Part shown: piece after piece, positions 9,023 to 42,397 of the stretch | How the letters are laid out: every line of letters starts with the position of its first letter | Position numbering within the stretch: the first letter of the stretch is position 1 | Source of the DNA: Bacillota bacterium | GTDB lineage: Bacteria; Bacillota; Sulfobacillia; JAJZYS01; JAJZLH01 | DNA length: 45,668 bases | Assembly: GCA_021827745.1 (NCBI GenBank) | Contig: JAKAUI010000029.1 | Location: forward strand, 1 to 45,668 | Direction of reading: 5' to 3' | Position numbers and translations under genes: made by a program | Notes under the pieces: generated by a model | Seen by the model: the letters and a program-made list of their open reading frames with translations, nothing else | What the model was told of the DNA's origin: nothing | Databases searched by the model: none

Positions 9023-9212
9023 CCGCTCGTCAAGTAATACCTGCCGGTTGCCTAGGGATGACCAGGCGAACGGCTGGTCACCCATCATGCGGCTCCAGGG
9101 AAGGAGACGATGGGCGAACGATTGACGCCGGAGCAACGCGAAATGGCCTGTTGCACTGAGTGCGACCCGCCGTCCGGTTGGACACTCGAGGGTGGGCGTG
9201 AGGAGGACGATT
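9023..9212 (+). other. Intergenic leader of acsA with a strong hairpin
   Basis: 190 bases between recG and acsA. It holds a hairpin at 9055-9083 (GGG-bulged A-TGACCAG paired with CTGGTCACCC, loop 9066-9073) without a T-run. A strong ribosome-binding-like GGAAGGAG precedes ATG 9110, whose frame starts with a short Cys-rich peptide but then runs 290 bases into acsA. I regard that frame as doubtful. The region may be the acsA 5' leader; no clear promoter is seen. Confidence 0.4.
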
Positions 9213-11249
9213 GTGAGCGACGAGACAGGCAGTGTTTCCGAGGCAGAAATTGCGGTCCACTGGGGCGAGGAAGCTTATTTCACCCCGCCGGAGTCATTTG
9301 TGGCCCAGGCAAACCTGACCGACCGGGACATCCGCAAGCGGTACAGTCTGGAGAACTTCCCGAACTACTACGAGGACTTTGCCAACCTTCTGTCCTGGGA
9401 CAGAAAGTGGGACAAGCTTCTCGACTCCTCGAACCCGCCGTTTTACAAGTGGTTCGTCGGGGGGCGGCTGAACGTCTCCTACAACTGTATCGACCGTCAT
9501 CTTGAGAAGTATCGCAACAAGACAGCGATTCACTTCGTCCCGGAGCCGGAGAACGAGCACATCGAGCACGTGACCTATCAGGAGCTGTGGGTCAAGGTCA
9601 ACGAGTTCGCGGCCTTCTTGCGCGACAAGGTGGGCGTCAAGCAGGGCGACCGGGTGACCATCCACATGCCGATGGTGCCCGAACTGCCGGTCACGATGCT
9701 GGCCCTGGCCCGTCTCGGGGCCATCCACTCGGTCGTGTTCGCCGGATTCAGCGCCAAGGCGTGTGCCGGCAGAATCGTGGACTCGGAAAGCCGAGTCCTG
9801 ATCACGATGGACGGCTACTACCGAGCCGGGACCCTGCTCGACCACAAGGAAAAGGCAGACGTTGCCTGTGACGAGGCAAGCGCCGAGGGGCAGAAGGTGG
9901 AGACCGTCCTGGTCTGGCAGCGCTACCCGGGGCGCTACTCCAGCCCGACACCGCTCAAGGCTGGCCGCGACCTGGTGGTGAACGACGAGTTGCCCGCCTT
10001 TCGCGGCAAGCGGGTCGCCCCGGTGTCGGTGCCGGCCGAAGACCCGCTGTTTCTGATGTACACCTCTGGCTCGACCGGTCGGCCCAAAGGCGCCCAGCAC
10101 AGCACGGGCGGCTATTTGTCCTACGTCACCTGGACGTCGAAGATGATCCAGGACATCCATCCGGACGATGTGTACTGGTGCATGGCCGACATCGGATGGA
10201 TCACCGGCCACTCCTACATCGTCTATGGCCCGCTCGCACTCGCCGCCTCCACCGTGATCTACGAAGGTACCCCGACCTATCCGGACGCCGGGCGGCCGTG
10301 GCGGGTGGCGGAGGAGCTTGGGGTCAACATCTTCCACACGTCGCCCACATCGATCCGAGCGCTGCGCAAGGCCGGCGGCGGCAATCCTGAGAAATACAAC
10401 TACCACTTCAAGCACATGACCACCGTCGGCGAGCCGATCGAACCGGATGTCTGGAAGTGGTACCACAAGGTCGTGGGCAAGGGCGAGGCCGTGATCGTCG
10501 ACACCTGGTGGCAGACCGAAAACGGCGGCTTTCTGTGCAGCACGGTGCCGGCTGTCGACAAGATGAAGCCGGGCAGCGCCGGGCCGCCGATCCCGGGGAT
10601 CCACCCCATGATCCTGGACGAGGACGGCAACCGGATGCCGGCTGGCACCGGCAAGGCCGGAAATATCTGCATTGAAAACCCGTGGCCGGGCATGTTCCAG
10701 GGCATCTGGCATGATCCGGACCGCTTCGTGGCCACCTACTTCACCAAGTACAACAAGAACCCGAAGAGCAAGGACTGGCGGGACTGGCCCTACTTCGCCG
10801 GAGACGGCGCCATGCTGGCCGCCGATGGCTACTTCCGGATTCTGGGCCGGATCGACGACGTGATCAACGTCGCCGGCCATCGACTGGGCACGAAGGAACT
10901 GGAGTCCGCAGCCCTCACCGTGGCCGGCGTTGCCGAAGCGGCGGTTGTGGCGGCCAAAGACGATATCAAGGGCGTCATGCCGGAGATCTACGTGTCCTTG
11001 CAGCCCGGTGTCGAGGCCAACGCGGCGATGGCCAAGAAGGTCTCGGACGCCGTGGCGAAGGAGATCGGGCCGATCGCCAGACCGCGCAAGGTGTGGCTGG
11101 TGCCAGACCTGCCCAAGACGCGCTCTGGAAAGATTATGCGCCGCATTCTGGCGGCCATCTCAAACAACAACCCGGACACCGGGGACATCACCACCCTGGC
11201 CAATCCGGAGATGGTGGAGCAGATTCAGAAGATCCACCAGGCAGGCTGA
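9213..11249 (+). CDS. acsA: Acetyl-CoA synthetase (AMP-forming acetate-CoA ligase)
   Basis: 678 residues, the normal size for Acs. It activates acetate to acetyl-CoA through acetyl-AMP. Adenylate-forming motifs are clear: MYTSGSTGRPKGAQH (A3), WWQTENGG (A5), YFAGDGAML, GRIDDVINVAGHRLGT (A8 hinge) and PKTRSGKIMRRIL, whose lysine is the catalytic and classically acetylatable A10 residue. GTG 9213 is chosen because AGGAGG (9201-9206) is 6 bases upstream; an in-frame GTG at 9192 lacks this. The next gene is an acetate-transporter family protein, which supports acetate as substrate. An acetylation-regulating acuA or deacetylase is not in the window. Confidence 0.95.
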   Translation: MSDETGSVSEAEIAVHWGEEAYFTPPESFVAQANLTDRDIRKRYSLENFPNYYEDFANLLSWDRKWDKLLDSSNPPFYKWFVGGRLNVSYNCIDRHLEKYRNKTAIHFVPEPENEHIEHVTYQELWVKVNEFAAFLRDKVGVKQGDRVTIHMPMVPELPVTMLALARLGAIHSVVFAGFSAKACAGRIVDSESRVLITMDGYYRAGTLLDHKEKADVACDEASAEGQKVETVLVWQRYPGRYSSPTPLKAGRDLVVNDELPAFRGKRVAPVSVPAEDPLFLMYTSGSTGRPKGAQHSTGGYLSYVTWTSKMIQDIHPDDVYWCMADIGWITGHSYIVYGPLALAASTVIYEGTPTYPDAGRPWRVAEELGVNIFHTSPTSIRALRKAGGGNPEKYNYHFKHMTTVGEPIEPDVWKWYHKVVGKGEAVIVDTWWQTENGGFLCSTVPAVDKMKPGSAGPPIPGIHPMILDEDGNRMPAGTGKAGNICIENPWPGMFQGIWHDPDRFVATYFTKYNKNPKSKDWRDWPYFAGDGAMLAADGYFRILGRIDDVINVAGHRLGTKELESAALTVAGVAEAAVVAAKDDIKGVMPEIYVSLQPGVEANAAMAKKVSDAVAKEIGPIARPRKVWLVPDLPKTRSGKIMRRILAAISNNNPDTGDITTLANPEMVEQIQKIHQAG

Positions 11250-11340
11250 CACAACGGCAGGATCCTGGAGTGTCGCCCCCAAGGCCACCGCGCCTGGACT
11301 CACCGTGACATCATGATCTGCTAAGGAGTGTGTTGCGATC

Positions 11341-11901
11341 TTGAACCTGAAAGCGAATCCGGCTCCGCTGGGCCTTGCAGGCTTCGCCCTGACGACCTGG
11401 ATGCTCAGCATGATCAACGCCGGCTGGTACCCGGGTGCAGGCCTGGGGCTGGTGTTGGCCCTCGCCTTTGCCTACGGCGGTCTCGCTCAGCTGATCGCCG
11501 GCGTCATGGAATATTCGAATGGGAACACCTTCGGAACCGTGGCGTTCTTCTCATACGGCTGCTTCTGGCTGTCGTTCGCCTTCTTCGCCGGCTTCTTCGG
11601 CAAGGGCGTCCCCGGCCCGTTCGTCGCCTGGTACCTGCTGATGTGGGGCATCTTCACGTTCTACATGTGGATCGGCGCCATGAAGATCAACACCGCCTTG
11701 AACCTGGTGTTCTTGGCCCTGTGGCTGACCTTCGTCATCCTGGCCGCCGGTGCCTTCGGTGTGGGCAATCTGACGCAGATCGGCGGATACGTCGGTCTGA
11801 TCACGGCCATCCTGGCCTTCTACGCTTCGGCCGCTCAGGTGATCAACGAGGTGCACGGCAAGATCGTGCTGCCGTTGGGAGCGCCGAAGAAGGCAGCCTA
11901 G
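11341..11901 (+). CDS. satP: Acetate uptake transporter, GPR1/FUN34/YaaH (SatP) family
   Basis: 186 residues with six predicted membrane helices. The family signature is at the N-terminus: NPAPLGLAGFALTT; later YGGLAQLIAGVMEYSNGNTF and FFSYGCFWLSF match the second and third conserved blocks. The family transports acetate and succinate with protons. The first usable start in frame is TTG 11341, 12 bases after AAGGAG (11323-11328), slightly long spacing. It lies 91 bases after acsA in the same direction, so uptake and activation of acetate are probably made together. Confidence 0.9.
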   Translation: MNLKANPAPLGLAGFALTTWMLSMINAGWYPGAGLGLVLALAFAYGGLAQLIAGVMEYSNGNTFGTVAFFSYGCFWLSFAFFAGFFGKGVPGPFVAWYLLMWGIFTFYMWIGAMKINTALNLVFLALWLTFVILAAGAFGVGNLTQIGGYVGLITAILAFYASAAQVINEVHGKIVLPLGAPKKAA

Positions 11902-12427: not shown

Positions 12428-14398
12428 ATGGCGATTCCGATGACGGGGGCGGCACAGGGCCGACTCCTGCACCCCTTGGTTCGAGATGGCGACAAGCTTC
12501 GCCAGGCGTCCTGGGACGAGGCGCTCAGCCGAGCGGCCGCAGGGCTGGAACGGGTCAAGCGGCAGTACGGCCCGGACGCCATCGGCTTGTTCAGCTGCTC
12601 GAAGTCCAGCAATGAGCTGAACTTTTTGGCCCAGAAGTTCGTCCGTACGGCGATCGGCACCAACAACATCGACAGCTGCAACCGTACCTGACACGCCCCC
12701 AGCGTCGCAGGTCTTGCGACAGCGTTCGGCTCCGGTGGCGGCACGGTCTCGTACCAGGAGATGGAAGACACCGACCTGATCATCCTCTGGGGCTCAAACG
12801 CCAGAGAGGCCCATCCGGTCATGTTCCACCACATGATGAAGGCGGTGCGGCGGCGCGGCGCCAAGCTGGTGGTGGTCGACCCGCGGCGGATCTCCGGCAC
12901 CGAGTTCGCGAGCATGTATCTGCCGGTGAACGTCGGCGGTGACGTGGCGCTCGCCAACGCCGTCGGCCACGTGATCGTGGAAGAGGGACTTGCGAACACA
13001 GAGTTCATCGAAGCGGCAACCGATGGCTTCGATGCCTATCGGAAGACGGTTCAGAACTACCGTCCGGAGGACGTCGAGAAACTGACCGGCGTCGACGCCC
13101 GTCTGGTGCGGCAGCTGGCCCGCCTGTACGCCACCTCTGAGCGGGCGATCCTGTGCTGGACGCTCGGCATCACAGAGCACCACAACGCCGTCCAGAACGT
13201 GCACGCCCTAATCAACCTCGGACTGGTGACCGGTCACGTCGGCCGGTATGGCAGCGGGCTCGCCCCTCTGCGCGGACAGAACAATGTCCAGGGCGGCGGA
13301 GACATGGGCGCCCTGCCCAACCGCCTGCCAGGCTTCCAGAACCTGACCGACCCCGAGATAAGAAAGCGCTTTTCGGACGCCTGGGGCGTCGCCCTCCCGG
13401 CGAAGAGCGGCAAGCACCAGACAGCCATGTTCGAAGCGATGGCCGCCGGTGAGATGCGCGCCCTCTATGTGATCGGCGAGAATCCGATCCAGTCCGAAGC
13501 CAATCTCCACCATGTCCGATCCTTGTTTGACGGGCTCGACTTTCTGCTGGTCCAAGACATCTTCCTCACGCCGACTGGCGAGCGGGCCGACGTTGTGCTG
13601 CCGGCCACCGCCAGCTGGGCAGAGGGGATGGGGACCGTGACCAGCTCGGAGCGGCGGGTGCAGCGGATGCGCCCGGCTCTGAAGCCGCCTGGCGAGGCCA
13701 GAGACGACCTGTGGATCGTCGAGGAGCTGGCGATGCGGCTGAACGCTCCAGGAGGCTGGCGCCACCGCACAGCCGAGGAAACCTGGGACGAGCTGCGCTC
13801 GCTCTCGCCGATGCACCGCGGGATGTCGTACGCCCGTCTTGAGGAGCTCGGCGGCATTCAGTGGCCCTGCCCGAGTGAGGGACACCCAGGCTCGCCCTTC
13901 CTGCACGGAAGGCTGTGGGAGCGACCGATCAGCGGCATGCGGGCCCCGTTTGTGGTGGCCGACCATGAGCCGACCGCCGAGCAGGTGGACCAGGACTTCC
14001 CCTTCATGCTCACCACCGGCCGTCGACTGGCCGCCTTCAATACCGGCGTTCAGACCCGGCACTACGCCGCACCCCGCGGCCACCACGAGACGCTCGAGAT
14101 GTGCAGCGAGGACATGGAGGCACTCGGGCTGGAACAGGGAGATGTCTGCCGGATCAGCTCCAGGCGCGGTGCCCTCGAGGTGCAGGTGACGCGCAGCCGC
14201 AAGGTTCATCCGGGGCTCGTCTTCATGAGCCTGAACCACCCGGACGAGGTCGCCACCAACCTGCTCACCCTGGACGCCACCGACCCGGTGGCGGGCACGG
14301 CCGAGTTCAAGGCGACCGCCGTCCAGATCGAGCGGGTGCGTGCAGCCGTGCCGGTCGGGCACGCCATCAGAGAGGCGGTTGACAGTCACCATGCCTGA
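12428..14398 (+). CDS. fdhA: Formate dehydrogenase catalytic subunit, selenocysteine-containing, lacking its N-terminal Fe-S domain
   Basis: 656 residues including Sec88, encoded by in-frame TGA 12689-12691. The context is DSCNRT-U-HAPSVAGL, the active site of Mo/W-bisPGD formate dehydrogenases, where Sec binds Mo and the next His is catalytic. PLRGQNNVQGGGDMG carries the conserved Arg. The rest is the molybdopterin oxidoreductase domain and the C-terminal Moco-binding domain (from about FPFMLTTGR). It starts at GRLLHPLVRDGDKLRQASWDEAL, exactly after the point where other FDHs have their Mop [4Fe-4S] domain, which is absent here and present at the C-terminus of the 16080-16943 gene. It oxidises formate to CO2 (or the reverse), probably in the cytoplasm since no Tat signal is visible. 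ATG 12428 follows AGGAGGGAG. An apparent stop at codon 88 would make annotation pipelines split it. Confidence 0.92.
12704..12720 (+). promoter_or_regulatory. Bacterial SECIS hairpin in fdhA
   Basis: Directly after the TGA at 12689-12691, GTCGCA (12704-12709) pairs perfectly with TGCGAC (12715-12720) around the loop GGTCT. The E. coli fdhF SECIS has the same GCAGGTCT core at the same distance: 15 bases between the UGA and the GCA of the upper stem. This hairpin would be bound by SelB to decode UGA as selenocysteine. Confidence 0.85.
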
Positions 14399-14858
14399 AC
14401 CGGGCCGCGAGATCATGGACCGAGTCGGAGCGTTGATCGACGAGACCGGATGCGAACGCACCCAGCTGCTGGAGGTCCTGCACCGGGTGCAGGCGGAGTT
14501 CCAGCACATTCCCCGGGCCGCCGCCGAGGCCATCGAGCAGCGGATGAACGTGCCGGTCGCCGACACCTATGGACTGGTCACCTTCTACGACCTTCTGACC
14601 GAGCACCCGGTCGGGCGAAGCGTCCTGCGCATCTGCGAGGACGTGCCCTGTTGCCTGCACGGCTCCGACCAGATGGCCGAAGAGGCGGCCAAGAGATTGG
14701 GGCCGGAGGGTGAACCTTCTGCCGACGGCGGCGTGTCCTGGACCCGCTGTGCCTGCCTCGGCCTGTGCGACAAGGCACCAGCAGCGCTGTGGCGTGAGCA
14801 GCCCTTGGCACCGCTGAAGGTCCACGACATCGAGGGCATCGGTGACAGCCATGCATGA
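14391..14858 (+). CDS. NuoE-like [2Fe-2S] subunit of NAD-linked formate dehydrogenase
   Basis: 155 residues, thioredoxin-like ferredoxin of the NuoE/HoxE family. The four cluster cysteines are in CEDVPCCLHG (C-x4-C) and CACLGLC (C-x3-C). The N-terminal helical part has VLHRVQAEFQHIP and the typical TYGLVTFYDLL. ATG 14391 overlaps the fdhA stop by eight bases. Together with the following NuoF-like gene it forms the diaphorase module that passes electrons between the FDH clusters and NAD(H). Confidence 0.93.
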   Translation: MPEPGREIMDRVGALIDETGCERTQLLEVLHRVQAEFQHIPRAAAEAIEQRMNVPVADTYGLVTFYDLLTEHPVGRSVLRICEDVPCCLHGSDQMAEEAAKRLGPEGEPSADGGVSWTRCACLGLCDKAPAALWREQPLAPLKVHDIEGIGDSHA

Positions 14859-16068
14859 GGCCGTGCTGCTGAGACGGCGGGGGGCCAAGGCAGGCGATCT
14901 GAAGTCCTACATCGGCTCCGGCGGTCTTGCAGCGCTTAAGAAGGCCCGGGCGATCGGGCCGGAGGAGACCGTTCGCATCCTGACCGACAGCGGGCTCGTT
15001 GGCCGAGGCGGCGCCGCCTTCCCGGCCGGGCGCAAGTGGGAGTCTGTCCGCACCGCCAAGGATCCGATCCGCTACGTTGTGCTGAACACAGACGAGAGCG
15101 AGCCGGGGACGTTCAAGGACCGGGTGATGATCGAGTCGGATCCCTTCATGGTGCTGGAGGGTCTTCTGATCGCCTGCTATGCCGTTTCCGCCACCCGTGC
15201 CTACATTTACGTGCGGGGAGAGTATCGGCATGTCGCCGAGCTCTTGGCAAAGAGCCTGCGCGAGCTGCAGCAGGCAGGACATCTGGAGGCAGTTGGCCCG
15301 AACGGAGCGGCGCTTGAGGTGGAGATCCGCCGCGGTGGCGGTGCCTATATCTGCGGCGAGGAGACCGCCCTCTTCCGCTCGATCGAGGGCTATCGCGGCG
15401 AGCCGATGGCGAAGCCGCCCTTCCCGACCGTGGCCGGTCTGTTCCGCAAGCCGACCGTCGTGAACAACGTCGAGACTTTAGCGAACGTGCCGGACATCAT
15501 CGCCTTCGGGGCAAAGGCGCTGCGCAGCCGGGGAACCGAACGCTCGCCTGGGACCAAGCTGTTCTCCGTCTCCGGGAGCGTGGATCGACCGGACACCTAT
15601 GAGGTGCCGTTTGGCACGCGGCTGAGCGACCTGTTGGAGCTGGCAGGCGGCGGCAAGGACCTGCAGGCGGTCCTGATGGGCGGGGCGGCCGGGACCTTCG
15701 TCTTCCCCAAGGACTTCGATCTGTCGCTCAGCTACGAGGGCGTGGCGGAACGCCACACGACGCTCGGGTCCGGCGCCGTCATCGCCTTTGACCGCGAGAC
15801 CAATCTGTGGCAGGTGGCAGAGCGCCTGGGCCGCTTTTTCGCCCACGAGTCCTGCGGACAGTGCGTGCCCTGCCGGGTCGGCACCCGGCGGCAGCACGAG
15901 ATGCTGCAGGCGCTGGCAGAGGGCCATGGGCGAGGCGACGAGCGGGGGCTTCTGACCCGGCTCAGCCAGGTGATGACCGACGCCTCCATCTGCGGCCTCG
16001 GCCAGACGGCAGCCACAGCGGTGCGCAGCCTGCTGGAGGCCGAGTCTGCTGGTCTGCTCGCCAACTAG
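14842..16068 (+). CDS. NuoF-like NADH-binding (FMN, [4Fe-4S]) subunit of formate dehydrogenase
   Basis: 408 residues. NADH site GRGGAAFPAGRKW, FMN site NTDESEPGTFKDR, then GGGAYICGEETAL and a SLBB domain. The [4Fe-4S] ligands are ESCGQCVPCRVG plus the distal Cys in SICGLG. It gives the complex its NAD+ specificity. GTG 14842 overlaps the NuoE-like gene by 17 bases; ATG 14851 is an alternative start. No N-terminal thioredoxin-like extension of the HydB type is present, so there is no direct sign here of an electron-bifurcating complex. Confidence 0.93.
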   Translation: MTAMHEAVLLRRRGAKAGDLKSYIGSGGLAALKKARAIGPEETVRILTDSGLVGRGGAAFPAGRKWESVRTAKDPIRYVVLNTDESEPGTFKDRVMIESDPFMVLEGLLIACYAVSATRAYIYVRGEYRHVAELLAKSLRELQQAGHLEAVGPNGAALEVEIRRGGGAYICGEETALFRSIEGYRGEPMAKPPFPTVAGLFRKPTVVNNVETLANVPDIIAFGAKALRSRGTERSPGTKLFSVSGSVDRPDTYEVPFGTRLSDLLELAGGGKDLQAVLMGGAAGTFVFPKDFDLSLSYEGVAERHTTLGSGAVIAFDRETNLWQVAERLGRFFAHESCGQCVPCRVGTRRQHEMLQALAEGHGRGDERGLLTRLSQVMTDASICGLGQTAATAVRSLLEAESAGLLAN

Positions 16069-16079
16069 GAGGAATGGAC

Positions 16080-16943
16080 ATGGCAGAAGGGTTCACGATC
16101 CTGATCGATGGCAAGAGGGCCGAGGCCCGGCCGGGAGAGACCATCCTCGATGTGTTGCGCCGAGAGCAGGTGGAGACACCGACCTTGTGCAACCACCAGC
16201 ACCTGACGCCGGCCAAGACCTGCCGTGCCTGCGTGGTCGAACTCAAGGGCAGCCGGCCGCTGGTGGCGTCGTGCGAACGCAAGGCAGAGCCGGACATGGA
16301 GGTGCGAACCGACTCCGAGCGGGTGCAAAATGCCCGCCGCGGCGTCTTCGAGCTCTTGCTCTCTCAGAACGACGTGTCGACCGCCCCGGGACTGGTCAGC
16401 CAGGCCGAGCAGCTGGGTGCCGTTCCCGACCGCTACCGCGGCCAAAAGTACGAGCGCGGCTTCTTCGACGACAACAAGCTGTATGTGCGCGACTTCGACA
16501 AGTGCATCCTGTGCTACCGCTGCGTTGAGGCCTGCGGCCCGGACGTGCAGAACACGTTTGCCCTGACCGTGGCTGGCCGCGGCTTCACGGCAGGCATCTC
16601 GGCCGGCTTCGACGAGACGCTGGTCGATTCAGCCTGCGTGTTCTGCGGCAACTGCGTCGAAGTCTGCCCGACCGGCGCCCTGATGGATCGGCGCGAGCAC
16701 ACCCTGCGCGCACAGGGGCGCTACGACGAAAGCCAGCAGGACGTGGTGCAGACCACCTGCTCCTACTGCGGGGTCGGCTGCCAGCTCGACCTGCACGTCG
16801 ACCGTCGGCGCAACGAGATCGTGAAGGTGACCAGCCCAGACCAGCACCCGATCACGCTTGGCTTCTTGTGCGTCAAGGGCCGCTATGGGTACAGCTTCCT
16901 GGAGGCTGAAGACAAGCCGGAAGAAGCAGTCAAAGGGGCCTAA
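16080..16943 (+). CDS. Formate dehydrogenase Fe-S subunit: NuoG-like N-terminus fused to the Mop [4Fe-4S] domain of the catalytic chain
   Basis: 287 residues. Domain order: a [2Fe-2S] ferredoxin (TLCNHQHL, KTCRACVVE, ASCERK); a linker with no cysteines where NuoG has its His/Cys [4Fe-4S] site; a two-cluster ferredoxin (CILCYRCVEAC and CVFCGNCVEVCP); then TTCSYCGVGCQLDLHV and FLCVKGRYGYSF (C-x2-C-x3-C-x26-C), which is the N-terminal Mop [4Fe-4S] domain of formate dehydrogenases. The protein ends 17 residues after FLCVKGRYGYSF. That is where the 12428-14398 protein takes over in sequence terms. ATG 16080 is 7 bases after TAGGAGG; ATG 16074 is too close. It is the last gene of the operon, 11 bases after the NuoF-like gene. 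Calling it an ordinary ferredoxin or NuoG would miss the domain transfer. Confidence 0.9.
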   Translation: MAEGFTILIDGKRAEARPGETILDVLRREQVETPTLCNHQHLTPAKTCRACVVELKGSRPLVASCERKAEPDMEVRTDSERVQNARRGVFELLLSQNDVSTAPGLVSQAEQLGAVPDRYRGQKYERGFFDDNKLYVRDFDKCILCYRCVEACGPDVQNTFALTVAGRGFTAGISAGFDETLVDSACVFCGNCVEVCPTGALMDRREHTLRAQGRYDESQQDVVQTTCSYCGVGCQLDLHVDRRRNEIVKVTSPDQHPITLGFLCVKGRYGYSFLEAEDKPEEAVKGA

Positions 16944-16982: not shown

Positions 16983-17100
16983 GCTTCTGAAGGGAGGTGA
17001 GGCCGGCGCATTGAGCGGTGTCTGAGCGGACTTGGTGGGGTAATGGGACCGGATCCCGGACTTGTCTTCCGCCTTTATGTCACGATGGGAGGGCAACTCG

Positions 17101-17685
17101 ATGGTGCTGGCTCAGTCTCATTTCTGGCCAGTTGCAATCGGCTTCTTTGGTCTCGGTACCGGCTACTTCATCTGGGGCGGCCAGGCCCTGTTCGGCGTCC
17201 CGAAGGCCAGCCCCGAGGTCGACAAGACCATGGGCTACTGGGGCGTGTGGATGCCCGGCTTCTTGCAGTTGATCACTGGTGTCTATCTGATGGTCGGACT
17301 CAGCTGGTTCCCGGTCTACGCCTATGCCGCTCCGCTGTACATGGCGGCCGTGGCCTTTACGTCGTACGGCACACACTGGCTGGTTCTCGGCCGCAGACGG
17401 GCCGAAGGTGCCAGCGCGGCACCAGACGCCTGGATGGCGATCGCCTTCTTCTTCCTGTCCGTCCTCGGCGCCATGGTCTTCAGCGGCGCCGGCGACATCC
17501 CGGTGATGATCCTGTTCATCGGCCTGGCTCTCATCTATCTGTTCGAGATCCCGGCCCGTTTCGGTGCCCTGCCGGCCGGCGGGAAGATCGTCGGCCTGAT
17601 CCAGTTCATCCTCGCCTTCTGGCTGATGTACCTGACCTTCGGCGTGACCCTCAACACCGCCCTCGGCTACCACTGGTGGGTGTAG
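17101..17685 (+). CDS. Divergent GPR1/FUN34/YaaH-like membrane transporter next to formate dehydrogenase
   Basis: 194 residues with about six hydrophobic helices. It lacks the usual NPAPLG signature but keeps the family layout: MPGFLQLITGVYLMVGL matches the G-L-Q-L-I-A-G helix and AFTSYGTHWLVLG matches AFxSYGxFWLxL of YaaH. It is a distant paralogue of the 11341-11901 protein. ATG 17101 has GGGAGG about 8 bases upstream. Its position right after the formate dehydrogenase operon suggests that it moves formate, acetate or another short carboxylate; that substrate is inference only. Confidence 0.6.
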   Translation: MVLAQSHFWPVAIGFFGLGTGYFIWGGQALFGVPKASPEVDKTMGYWGVWMPGFLQLITGVYLMVGLSWFPVYAYAAPLYMAAVAFTSYGTHWLVLGRRRAEGASAAPDAWMAIAFFFLSVLGAMVFSGAGDIPVMILFIGLALIYLFEIPARFGALPAGGKIVGLIQFILAFWLMYLTFGVTLNTALGYHWWV

Positions 17686-17859: not shown

Positions 17860-18137
17860 AGCGTGAACGCCATGATCGGGGCGAGTACCCCTGTGGCCAC
17901 CCTCAGAGAGCCGGCGCTCGGTGTGAAGCCGGTGGGCAGAACAGGGCGAATGGACCCGGGAGCAGCGATCCGACCGGTCTGTGTGATCGGAAGGCGTCGT
18001 CGGCCACCTCCGCCGATATCGGGAGGCGGGTATCGGTCATTTCCCTGACCCGTACCCAGTGAGATGGGTCTTCGGACTCAACAAGGGTGGCACCGCGAAA
18101 GCACACTTTCGCCCCTCTGGGGCGGAGGTGTTTTTTT
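17860..18137 (+). promoter_or_regulatory. T-box riboswitch with Trp specifier, controlling trpEGDCFBA
   Basis: A tRNA-sensing leader. Stem I shows GAGTA (17883-17887), the AGAGAG bulge (17905-17910), CCGGC/GCCGG (17911-17915 with 17928-17932), and a specifier loop reading GAA-TGG-ACC with the Trp codon TGG at 17951-17953. The T-box sequence AGGGTGGCACCGCG is at 18084-18097. Its TGGC (18088-18091) would pair with a tRNA ending GCCA, which fits bacterial tRNA-Trp with discriminator G. Uncharged tRNA-Trp should stabilise the antiterminator and switch on trp transcription. Confidence 0.92.
18104..18137 (+). terminator. T-box-controlled intrinsic terminator
   Basis: A 12-pair stem (18104-18115 with 18119-18130, core CGCCCC/GGGGCG, loop TCT, three G-T pairs in the lower part) followed by seven T (18131-18137). 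This is the conditional terminator of the Trp T-box, 31 bases before the trpE start. Confidence 0.9.
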
Positions 18138-38751: not shown

Positions 38752-39998
38752 ACGTGGTGCTCGGTGTCCTGGAGTGGATCGTGGTGCTGGCCGTGGTCTA
38801 CGTCGTCCTGCCGGAGCTCTTGGGCCACTACCTGGGCGTGGGGGCGGTGCACTCGGTGAAGACCGAGCGCCCCGAGCTGGCCCTCACCTTTGACGACGGC
38901 CCGGGGCCGCTCACGACCCAGATCCTCGACCTTTTAGCCCAGGCCGATGCCAAGGCCACCTTCTTCATGGTCGGCCGCCAGGCCGAGCGCTATCCGGATG
39001 TGGTCCGCCAGGTGCACGCCGGCGGCCATGAGGTCGCCAATCACTCGGAGACCCATCTCGGGCTGTGGTGGACCGGCCCGGTGGCCACCCTTCGCCAGTT
39101 CGAACAGGCGGCGGCGGTCTTGGCCAGCAACACCCACCAGCGGCCGCACCATCTGCGCCCCCCCTGGGGCCAGTTCAACCTGGCCTTGTGGTCCGCCGCC
39201 AGCCGGCTGGAGCACCGGGTGGTGCTGTGGTCGGTGAACGCCTTCGACTGGCGGCAGAAGGACACGCCAGAGGCCATCGCCGCCCGCCTTGTGCGGGCCA
39301 GACCCGGCGCCATCATCCTGCTGCACGACGCCGGCGGCGACGGCCGCCACAGGACCCTGGCGGCGCTCAAGATCGCCCTGCCCGAACTGCGTGCCAAGGG
39401 CATCCGGCTGGTCACGGTGGAGCGGCTGATCGCAAGAGGCGTCCCCAGCGTGCCGCTCAGAATGCGGATCTGGGACGTGTGGGAGGCGATCTACGACCGT
39501 CTCTACAAGGTAGACCCCTTAGGCGAGGACTCCATCTTCCGCCTGCAGCGCGGCGTGCTCAAGGAACCGATCGACCAGGCCGATGGCACCCAGCTGAAGG
39601 CAGGGACCGTCTACGGCGAGATCCACCTCAAGAACACGGCCCTAAGCCAGCTGGGGGCGATCCGCGGCCTCAGTTCTCTCCGCCACTCGCTGACCACATT
39701 GGCCGAGCGACTGAAGACGGAGCGGCGCTGGCAGGACATCGAGGTGTTCTTAGGTACCACCATCCTCGGCCGGCCGGCCGCCAGCCTCGGCTTCACGGTC
39801 AGTCCGGTGGCCGATAACCTGGGCGGCTGGTGGGCCAAGACGTACCGCAACTGGCTGATGCTGATCTACCATCCGCGGGGGATGCACCGGGCGGGCAGTC
39901 CTGAAAAGATGCAGCTGGTGTTCATCTCGATGAGCCGGCACGTGCTGCTCGAGCGATACGGACATTCGGGAGAGGAAGGGCGGGCGGACGATGACTGA
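38748..39998 (+). CDS. Polysaccharide deacetylase (NodB domain) with YkoP-like C-terminal domain
   Basis: 416 residues. An N-terminal membrane helix (VVLGVLEWIVVLAVVYVVL) anchors a NodB deacetylase: LALTFDDGPGP (metal Asp), HEVANHSETH (metal His), RPPWGQFN and ILLHDAGG. From about residue 235 a second domain (IWDVWEAIYDRLYKVDPLG, GTVYGEIHLKN) resembles B. subtilis YkoP. It should remove acetyl groups from an envelope sugar outside the membrane. GTG overlaps the MFS stop; the end overlaps selA by eight bases. Confidence 0.88.
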   Translation: MNVVLGVLEWIVVLAVVYVVLPELLGHYLGVGAVHSVKTERPELALTFDDGPGPLTTQILDLLAQADAKATFFMVGRQAERYPDVVRQVHAGGHEVANHSETHLGLWWTGPVATLRQFEQAAAVLASNTHQRPHHLRPPWGQFNLALWSAASRLEHRVVLWSVNAFDWRQKDTPEAIAARLVRARPGAIILLHDAGGDGRHRTLAALKIALPELRAKGIRLVTVERLIARGVPSVPLRMRIWDVWEAIYDRLYKVDPLGEDSIFRLQRGVLKEPIDQADGTQLKAGTVYGEIHLKNTALSQLGAIRGLSSLRHSLTTLAERLKTERRWQDIEVFLGTTILGRPAASLGFTVSPVADNLGGWWAKTYRNWLMLIYHPRGMHRAGSPEKMQLVFISMSRHVLLERYGHSGEEGRADDD

Positions 39999-41325
39999 GG
40001 ATCCAAGACGCCGCCTGCCGTCTGTCACCCGGCTGCTCGAGCTGACCGCGCTGCCGGCCAATCGTCTGACCGTGAGCCTGATCGAGGCCGAACTGGCCCG
40101 GGAGCGAGCCGCTCTCAAGGAGAACGCTAAGCCGCACTCCGAGCAGGAGCTGGTCCGGCGCGTTCAGAACGCCGTGGCCCGCTCCGGCCCGGGACTGACC
40201 GAGGTGCTGAACGGAACCGGGGTTGTGGTCCACACCAACATCGGGCGCTCGCCGCTCTCCGAACTGGCCGGGTCGATGGCGCTTCGGGCTGCGCTCGGCT
40301 ACAGCGACCTAGAGTTCGATCTCCTGGGCGGGCGGCGCTCCAGCCGCCAGGACCACCTGCAGTCCCTGCTCACCCTCCTGACCGGCGCCGAGGCGGCGGT
40401 GGTGGTGAACAACAACGCCGCCGCCGTCTTCTTGGCCCTGGTCACGCTGGCCCAGGGCCGCCAAGTGGTGATCTCCCGCGGCGAGCTGGTGGAGATCGGC
40501 GGCTCGTTTCGGGTCCCGGACATCATGGCGGCCTCTGGAACCGAGCTGGTCGAGGTGGGCACCACCAACCGCACCCGGCTCTCCGACTATGAGCGGGCGA
40601 TCGGACCGAAGACAGCGGCCCTGCTCAGGGTCCATCCCTCCAACTTCCAGATCCGGGGCTTCACCGAGCGGGCCGACCCGGTGGCTCTGGCCGAGCTGGC
40701 GCACGCCAAGGGCCTCGTGATGATCGACGATTTGGGCAGCGGCAGCCTGTGGCCCCTGCCGGGCGAACCCGACGTGGCGAGTCGGGTGCGTCAGGGAGCG
40801 GACGTGGTCACCTTCTCCGGAGACAAGCTGCTGGGTGGGCCACAGGCCGGGATCGCGGCCGGGCGCAGGCAGGTGATCGACCAGATGAAGCGCCACCCGC
40901 TGTATCGGGCGCTGCGGCCAGACAAGATGACGGTGGCGGCGCTGCGGGCCACCTTATGGCAGACCCTGGTCGAACCGGACAAGATCCCGGTGCGCCAGAT
41001 GGTGACGGCCGACCCGATCGCGCTCCGCCGCCTGGCCAGACGGCTCTTGGCCCAGCTGAAGCGGCGCGGCGTCAGTGCGTCGCTCAGGGCAAAGGGAGGC
41101 GTGGCCGGCGGCGGCAGCCTGCCCGATGTGGAGCTCGCCGGCGTGGCCGTCTCGATCGATCCTGGGGCGAGGTCCGCCGCAGATGTGCAGGCCCGCCTGC
41201 GCCAGGGCCCGGTTGCGTTGCTGGTGCAGGTCGAAGATGGCATGATCGTCGTGGACGTCAGATGCCTGCCCGCCAAGCGGATCAGCGAGGTGGCAGACAT
41301 TCTGGCCGCCTGCCTGTTGCACTGA
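39991..41325 (+). CDS. selA: L-seryl-tRNA(Sec) selenium transferase
   Basis: 444 residues, PLP enzyme that turns Ser-tRNA(Sec) into Sec-tRNA(Sec) with selenophosphate. The N-terminal domain has RLPSVTRLLEL; the core NGTGVVVHTNIGRSPL, VVNNNAAAV, ELVEVGTTNRT and the PLP Lys279 in FSGDKLLGGPQAG. It is followed 13 bases later by selD. selB, the usual neighbour, is not in this window. Its presence supports reading the in-frame TGA codons of fdhA and selD as selenocysteine. Confidence 0.96.
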   Translation: MTEDPRRRLPSVTRLLELTALPANRLTVSLIEAELARERAALKENAKPHSEQELVRRVQNAVARSGPGLTEVLNGTGVVVHTNIGRSPLSELAGSMALRAALGYSDLEFDLLGGRRSSRQDHLQSLLTLLTGAEAAVVVNNNAAAVFLALVTLAQGRQVVISRGELVEIGGSFRVPDIMAASGTELVEVGTTNRTRLSDYERAIGPKTAALLRVHPSNFQIRGFTERADPVALAELAHAKGLVMIDDLGSGSLWPLPGEPDVASRVRQGADVVTFSGDKLLGGPQAGIAAGRRQVIDQMKRHPLYRALRPDKMTVAALRATLWQTLVEPDKIPVRQMVTADPIALRRLARRLLAQLKRRGVSASLRAKGGVAGGGSLPDVELAGVAVSIDPGARSAADVQARLRQGPVALLVQVEDGMIVVDVRCLPAKRISEVADILAACLLH

Positions 41326-41338
41326 GGAGGATGGAGCG

Positions 41339-42397
41339 ATGGCCCAGGCGGTGCGCCTGACCACCTTGTCCAACAAGAGCGGCTGAGGGTGCAAGGTGGG
41401 TCCGGAGGACCTGCATCGCATCTTGGCCGGCCTCAACTTGAGCTTTGACGAGCCGCGCCTGATCGTCGGTGCCACCGACGATGCTGGAGTCTACGCCATC
41501 GACGACGACACCTGGCTGGTGCAGACGGTCGACTTCTTCACTCCGATCGTGGACGACGCATACAGCTACGGCCAGGTGGCGGCTGCCAACAGCCTGTCCG
41601 ACGTCTTCGCCATGGGCGCTCGGCCGATCACGGCCATGGCCCTGGCCGCCTTTCCGATCGAGGATCTTCCCACGTCGATCCTGCACGACATCATGCAGGG
41701 CGGACTGGACAAGGTCAGGGAGGCGGGCGCCGTGCTGCTCGGCGGCCACACGATCGACGACCCGATCCCCAAGTACGGACTCTCCGTCACAGGCGTGGTG
41801 CCGGCCCACCAGATCTGGACCAAAGAGGGCGCCAAGCCAGGAGACCAGCTCTATCTGACCAAGCCGATTGGCACCGGTATCCTGGCCAAGGCGACCAAGG
41901 ACGGACTGATCGATGCCGAGGTGGAGCAGAGCATGGTGGCCTGGATGGCCCAGCTCAACCAGGGAGCGGCCCGGGCGGCTCGGGCCGTCCCTGAGATCCG
42001 CTCTGTGACGGACATCACCGGATTTGGCCTGCTCGGCCACGGCCTTGAGATGGCGACCGCCTCCGGCGTCAGGCTGGTGATCGACGCCGGCCGGGTCCCC
42101 ATCCATCCCACGACCTTCGCCCATGCCAAGGCCGGCGAGGTGCCGGGCGGCAGCTGGGACAACATGCGCCATGTGGCTCCAGAGCTCGATGTGGTCGAGA
42201 CTATGACCGACGGAGAGATCGTGGTCTACGCCGACGGCGTCACCTCTGGCGGGCTCTTGATCAGCTGTCCGCGAGAGCGCTCGGCCGAGCTGGAGGCGCA
42301 GTTCGCGGCCGAAGACGTCCAGTTCTGGCAGATCGGCGAGGTGATGGCCGAAGGTGGCCACCGCCTGACCCTGACCGGAAGGAGCGAGCAGAGCTAG
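41339..42397 (+). CDS. selD: Selenide, water dikinase, itself a selenoprotein
   Basis: 352 residues including Sec16 (in-frame TGA 41384-41386). The N-terminus reads VRLTTLSNKSG-U-GCKVGPEDL, the active-site loop where other SelDs have Cys or Sec followed by GCK. The body has TDDAGVYAIDDDTWLVQTVD, SLSDVFAMGARPITAM, GGHTIDDPIPKYGLSVTG and TDITGFGLLGHGLEMA. Makes selenophosphate from selenide and ATP. ATG 41339 is preceded by GAGGAGG. An ordinary gene caller would start at GTG 41396 and lose the catalytic residue. Confidence 0.93.
41390..41415 (+). promoter_or_regulatory. Probable SECIS element in selD
   Basis: After TGA 41384-41386, TGCA-(A)-GGT (41390-41397) can pair with ACCTGCA (41409-41415). 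An alternative is GGTCC (41399-41403) with GGACC (41407-41411) around the loop GGA. The loop starts with G, 17 bases after the UGA, within the range reported for bacterial SECIS. The exact fold is not settled by eye. Confidence 0.55.

Follow-up and report, generated by a model that had tools for sequence, protein, structure and literature searches.

How does a formate dehydrogenase (FDH) obtain its proximal iron–sulfur cluster when the catalytic chain carries no domain to bind one, and how did such an arrangement arise? The question is raised by a four-gene operon at positions 12,428–16,943 of contig JAKAUI010000029.1 from a Bacillota bacterium of the class Sulfobacillia (assembly GCA_021827745.1), a 45,668-nucleotide stretch referred to below as the window. 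To our knowledge, all characterised enzymes that contain bis-molybdopterin guanine dinucleotide (bis-MGD) together with a proximal cluster bind that cluster within the catalytic polypeptide itself, close to the cofactor. Here the catalytic protein begins at the molybdopterin domain, and the Mop [4Fe-4S] domain forms the C terminus of the last gene product of the operon. We consider it likely, with a probability of about 85%, that the operon encodes a selenocysteine FDH linked to nicotinamide adenine dinucleotide (NAD+) that obtains its proximal cluster in trans, that this variant of a known enzyme is widespread, and that the Mop domain changed partner once.

The four genes lie on the plus strand in the order A-E-F-N and are tightly packed, with neighbours overlapping or standing 11 bases apart. 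The catalytic gene (FdhA, 12,428–14,398) starts at an ATG at 12,428 with a good Shine–Dalgarno sequence, stops at 14,396–14,398 and encodes 656 residues, in which Pfam finds the Molybdopterin domain (residues 12–435) and the C-terminal dinucleotide-binding domain Molydop_binding (526–630). Residues U88, H89 and R282 align with the active-site residues U140, H141 and R333 of Escherichia coli FdhF. The Pfam search detected no Molybdop_Fe4S4 domain in this protein, and no Fe–S remnant lies upstream of 12,428, where the open frame is just 19 codons long. Next come FdhE (14,391–14,858), a NuoE-like thioredoxin-fold [2Fe-2S] subunit whose start overlaps the catalytic stop, and the diaphorase FdhF (14,842–16,068), a NuoF-like subunit binding flavin mononucleotide (FMN) and NAD, whose Pfam content consists of Complex1_51K, SLBB and NADH_4Fe-4S alone. 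The last gene, FdhN (16,080–16,943), encodes a NuoG-N/HoxU-like protein of 287 residues with motifs for one [2Fe-2S] and two [4Fe-4S] clusters (Fer2_4 at 5–79, followed by Fer4 domains) and, at its end, the displaced Molybdop_Fe4S4 domain (PF04879, residues 222–274, E 4e-17). This domain (16,734–16,940, CxxCGVGC...CVKG) contributes Cys227, Cys230, Cys234, Cys264 and Lys266. An earlier first-pass annotation of the window had placed both halves exactly so and estimated a joined length of ~943 residues; Pfam agrees with the placement, and the two chains add up to 656 + 287 = 943 residues.

The two chains complement each other along known single-chain enzymes. On the FDH alpha-subunit model TIGR01591, FdhN residues 225–279 match model positions 1–53 and catalytic residues 10–634 match positions 51–672. 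The catalytic protein alone scores 658.9 bits, just below the curated cut-off of 666.25, and lacks only model positions 1–50, as FdhN supplies that stretch. The matches to Rhodobacter capsulatus FdsA (6tg9_A) also abut, with FdhN residues 7–279 covering positions 27–308 and catalytic residues 9–635 covering 305–932. AlphaFold2 (AF2) models give the same picture: the catalytic model (pLDDT 87, pTM 0.87) has as its best Foldseek match FDH1 of Methylorubrum (7vw6_A, TMq 0.91), and the best match of the FdhN model is the same chain (TMq 0.70 over 279 columns). Because both models point to 7vw6_A, the Mop domain is expected to dock in the way seen in that one-chain enzyme. The four cysteines and the lysine are retained in 67 of 67 split Mop domains, and C227, C230, C234, C264 and K266 are invariant among 41 aligned sequences. 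In the FdhN tree the window protein separates from the NuoG proteins of complex I with a support of 100, as it does from the two NuoG of its own host genome (loci G000:C57:2480-4562 and G000:C1:23390-25162; one match on C57 contains a TGA). A second full-length fdhA that might pair with this diaphorase, raised by the first-pass annotation as an objection, was looked for in the host genome, which is 96.8% complete, and none was found; a plasmid search returned only distant matches to ordinary FDHs. With complementary template matches, invariant ligands and lysine, synteny throughout the clade and no other FdhA, the supply of the proximal cluster in trans, the first part of the earlier interpretation, is supported, if by inference.

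The catalytic subunit is a selenoprotein, a point that the first-pass annotation missed even though its reading-frame coordinates were right. The frame is open only if the TGA at 12,689–12,691 is read as selenocysteine 88 (NRT-U-HAPS), the counterpart of U140 in the alignment with E. coli FdhF. Twelve nucleotides after the UGA lies the apical hairpin of a bacterial selenocysteine insertion sequence (SECIS; GUCGCA-GGUCU-UGCGAC, 12,704–12,720, plus strand), whose stem-loop is invariant in 12 relatives save for one base of the 3' stem, with variation at the silent sites around it. Of the 45 UGA genes listed, nearly all have the GGUCU loop, whereas most of the 20 cysteine genes listed, which come from Actinomycetota, have lost it. 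Folding of the single sequence is no better than that of shuffled sequences (z -0.56), so conservation is the evidence for the hairpin. The decoding machinery is at hand: the window itself encodes, on the plus strand, selenocysteine synthase SelA (39,991–41,325) and directly after it SelD (41,339–42,397), itself a selenoprotein with an in-frame UGA at 41,384–41,386 (SGUGCKVGP), and the host genome also encodes SelB and tRNA-Sec.

The split arrangement is peculiar neither to one genome nor to the Firmicutes. Among 84,980 named species genomes scanned, 573 relatives were confirmed, and the 80 best of them were analysed. In 10 of these 80, all from Bacillaceae, the Mop and catalytic domains are fused in one chain; NuoEF/N genes were absent from the four surroundings read, and none were found beside the other six. 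The remaining 70 loci have a catalytic gene devoid of a Mop domain. A downstream N-Mop gene is present at every split locus with enough sequence (59 of 59), the other 11 contigs ending first; the first-pass annotation had proposed a search for other genomes with this gene order. The carriers belong to Bacillota (Sulfobacillus and uncultured relatives), Actinomycetota, Acidobacteriota, Gemmatimonadota, Chloroflexota, Planctomycetota and Myxococcota. Closer to the window, two congeners and most relatives of the same order show the same gene order where contigs are long enough, and a split-type N subunit occurs in 18 of 101 genomes drawn from the class. All 79 catalytic subunits of the split clade have Sec or Cys at position 88 and keep the Sec/Cys-His and RGQNN (Arg) motifs, and dN/dS between congeners is 0.07–0.16 for each of the five parts, Mop among them, indicating purifying selection. 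An in-frame TGA that interrupts the catalytic frame under the standard code could be taken for the mark of a frameshift, a misjoined contig or a pseudogene. It stands, however, at the selenocysteine position, with a SECIS hairpin and the full decoding machinery, and dozens of other genomes, a number of them assembled into one or two contigs, have the arrangement too. This recurrence in independent genomes, together with the low dN/dS, excludes chance or assembly error, and we give such an artefact practically no weight.

Some carriers show local variations. At L101:4978-8875 (Actinoallomurus) two split-type catalytic genes stand in tandem, of which one seems to use UGA and the other Cys, followed by a fused E-F gene and N-Mop. 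In an Acidimicrobiia group and Nocardiopsis potens (L077, L078, L095, L104, L105, L108, L110, L128 and L136), ~2 kb separate the catalytic and E genes. Three contigs of metagenome-assembled genomes titled Bifidobacterium breve (L091, L104 and L110) carry Acidimicrobiia-type FDH genes that cluster with Acidimicrobiaceae; the titles look wrong.

The complex is probably cytoplasmic, composed of four subunits, and most likely an NAD+-dependent selenocysteine FDH. Formate would be oxidised at the molybdenum or tungsten (Mo/W) bis-MGD site of the catalytic subunit, with Sec88, His89 and Arg282, and electrons would leave through the [4Fe-4S] cluster of the C-terminal Mop domain of FdhN. This domain is predicted to dock from outside against the bis-MGD, with Lys266 between the cluster and the pterin. 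From there the electron path would lead over both [4Fe-4S] clusters and the [2Fe-2S] cluster of FdhN to the FMN/NAD site of the NuoF-like subunit with its NuoE-like partner.

NAD+ as the acceptor has to be weighed against electron bifurcation, in which formate oxidation would be coupled to reduction of both ferredoxin and NAD+. HylCBA-FdhF2 of Gottschalkia (Clostridium) acidurici, an electron-bifurcating FDH (Wang 2013b, as cited in passages of PMC5736913 and PMC6085437), is described there with the same four-part composition, namely separate catalytic, NuoE-like and NuoF-like subunits and a separate HylA-like NuoG-N subunit. In those descriptions, however, FdhF2 has its own 4Fe-4S/Mop domain and HylB has additional 2Fe-2S and two 4Fe-4S domains (PMC5736913), whereas in the window the Mop domain is on FdhN and the Pfam search found no extra ferredoxin domain of the HylB/HydB type in FdhF. 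Plain NAD+ reduction is therefore more likely. The F subunits also fall apart from HydB-type F in our comparison, and many carriers belong to genera known as aerobes, Nonomuraea and Streptomyces among them, so that we regard bifurcation as improbable. We find it harder still to believe that the two genes are not partners, with N-Mop belonging to complex I or to some other enzyme and FdhA working without a proximal cluster or being inactive. This idea sits poorly with the linkage in all 59 loci, the overlapping genes, the purifying selection and the separation of FdhN from complex I NuoG, those of the host included, and the Mop ligands and lysine are invariant though the N chain has no molybdopterin domain of its own.

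The origin of the split is addressed by trees of the two halves. In the catalytic tree the split sequences form one clade (ultrafast bootstrap 100, SH-aLRT 98), whose sister is the group of Bacillaceae single-chain Mop-catalytic FdhAs (100/100); fused NuoG-like FdhAs fall outside, and a topology joining the Bacillaceae with the window's group was rejected by the approximately unbiased (AU) test (p-AU 0.020). The split catalytic domains share a mean identity of 54% with the Bacillaceae ones. In the N tree the split sequences again form one clade (95), with the stand-alone N of L171 as sister (99). L171 is a single-contig genome of 3.6 Mb in which an E-F-N series (L171:7388-11868) is followed, a few bases past the N stop, by a separate Mop-catalytic gene whose catalytic domain belongs to another group than the split ones. 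An N sister to the split N thus stands beside a catalytic gene of another group, and the modules have recombined, as judged from these sequences. Two scenarios built on this locus were rejected: a circular permutation of a fused chain at the operon level, suggested by an L171 N-Mop frame with a TGA, fails because N ends at a real stop and is a stand-alone protein, and the whole L171 operon is not an ancestor-like form because its catalytic gene falls outside the split group.

The first-pass annotation had proposed a simple fission of a fused NuoG-like FdhA (N-Mop-catalytic) at the junction of its Mop and molybdopterin domains. In this scenario the catalytic half would have become the first gene of the operon, for example if E-F-[N-Mop-cat] had been duplicated in tandem and the outer halves then lost. 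Some observations agree with fission: in the catalytic tree a fused N-Mop-catalytic chain (L054) branches close to the base of the clade that unites split and Bacillaceae sequences, and the split Mop domains have a higher mean identity to fused NuoG-like ones (45%) than to those of Bacillaceae (39%), values that cover a domain of about 60 residues, too short to settle its own origin. Neither sister, however, has a contiguous N-Mop-catalytic chain, the catalytic sister lacking the N part and the N sister lacking Mop. A clade of split and fused NuoG-like N to the exclusion of L171 was rejected (p-AU 0.018). Split N proteins also retain, ahead of the Mop domain, the E..R..G.W tail seen in the stand-alone N, and the additional NuoG [4Fe-4S] motif that fused chains possess is missing from them. 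As the nearest relatives of the two halves are not parts of one N-Mop-catalytic chain, a change of partner fits better than plain fission. The most likely event, as far as these trees can tell, is a single move of the Mop domain, which in the clade's ancestor would have left a catalytic gene and joined the end of a stand-alone N gene; the clade then appears to have reached at least seven phyla. Fission is thus not favoured, and we hold it to be unlikely while still a serious candidate, given the position of L054 and a stand-alone N that comes from one genome.

Several points weigh against the overall reading of an in-trans enzyme with a single change of partner. The docking is drawn from homology only, and the FdhN model is weak in the ferredoxin part, with pLDDT <50 at about residues 149–191. 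In the literature we found neither activity measurements nor data on the electron acceptor for any enzyme of the clade. Both trees rest on few close outgroups, the stand-alone N being that of L171.

The chemistry and the modules are ordinary; the partition is unusual and widespread. The FdsABG/FDH1 enzymes of R. capsulatus (6tg9) and Methylorubrum extorquens (7vw6) have the same modules and the same expected electron path: a NuoE/F diaphorase, a NuoG-like Fe–S part, a Mop [4Fe-4S] domain and a Mo/W-bis-MGD domain with Sec/Cys-His-Arg. In them N, Mop and catalytic parts form one chain, whereas in the window they form two, cut between Mop and molybdopterin, and the gene order is changed. Single-chain FdhF-type enzymes, such as E. 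coli FDH-H and the Bacillaceae relatives (L070-L072, L074, L075, L090, L096, L106, L107 and L135), have Mop fused to the catalytic domain; those of Bacillaceae share the UGA and a similar SECIS hairpin with the window gene and differ in having no NuoEF/N genes beside them. Gene clusters of the split type have been met before. Justice et al. (2014) state that Sec FDHs adjoin NuoEFG homologues in all Sulfobacillus genomes, describe the enzyme as cytoplasmic and propose coupling to NAD+ (PMC4378227), and the Sulfobacillus locus L076 (probably also G045 and G020) belongs to the split clade. A Lost City Chloroflexi cluster of fdhA with nuoG, hoxF and hoxE (PMC7117926) has, as described, the same gene content as the window operon. 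The passages of these two papers on the clusters report the genes and do not mention the position of the Mop domain, and in open-licence papers we found no description of its relocation.

On one side of the FDH operon, the window encodes an acetyl-CoA synthetase and a GPR1/FUN34/YaaH acetate transporter (9,192–11,901), and on the other a Pfam-negative membrane protein (17,062–17,685) with 28–29% identity to the transporter; this context is conserved in the congener L039. A T-box leader follows at 17,863–18,119, upstream of an apparent anthranilate synthase/tryptophan operon.

For automated annotation the finding is a correction, as the catalytic gene of the window falls below the Fdh-alpha cut-off and ordinary gene calling cuts it at the UGA. 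A further and rather doubtful extension is that the Mop domain acts as a detachable lid, with bis-MGD loaded via FdhD, which is present in the host genome, into an open catalytic subunit that docking of N-Mop then closes and wires. If so, insertion of the proximal cluster would be a separate, possibly regulated assembly step, and several catalytic subunits, for example the tandem copies of Actinoallomurus, could share one diaphorase. CO2-reducing FDHs are of applied interest, and the split chains offer a ready-made means to express the catalytic and wiring modules apart. A clade in which the cluster comes from another subunit would provide a natural test of the role of the cluster domain in cofactor insertion, oxygen tolerance and electron transfer.

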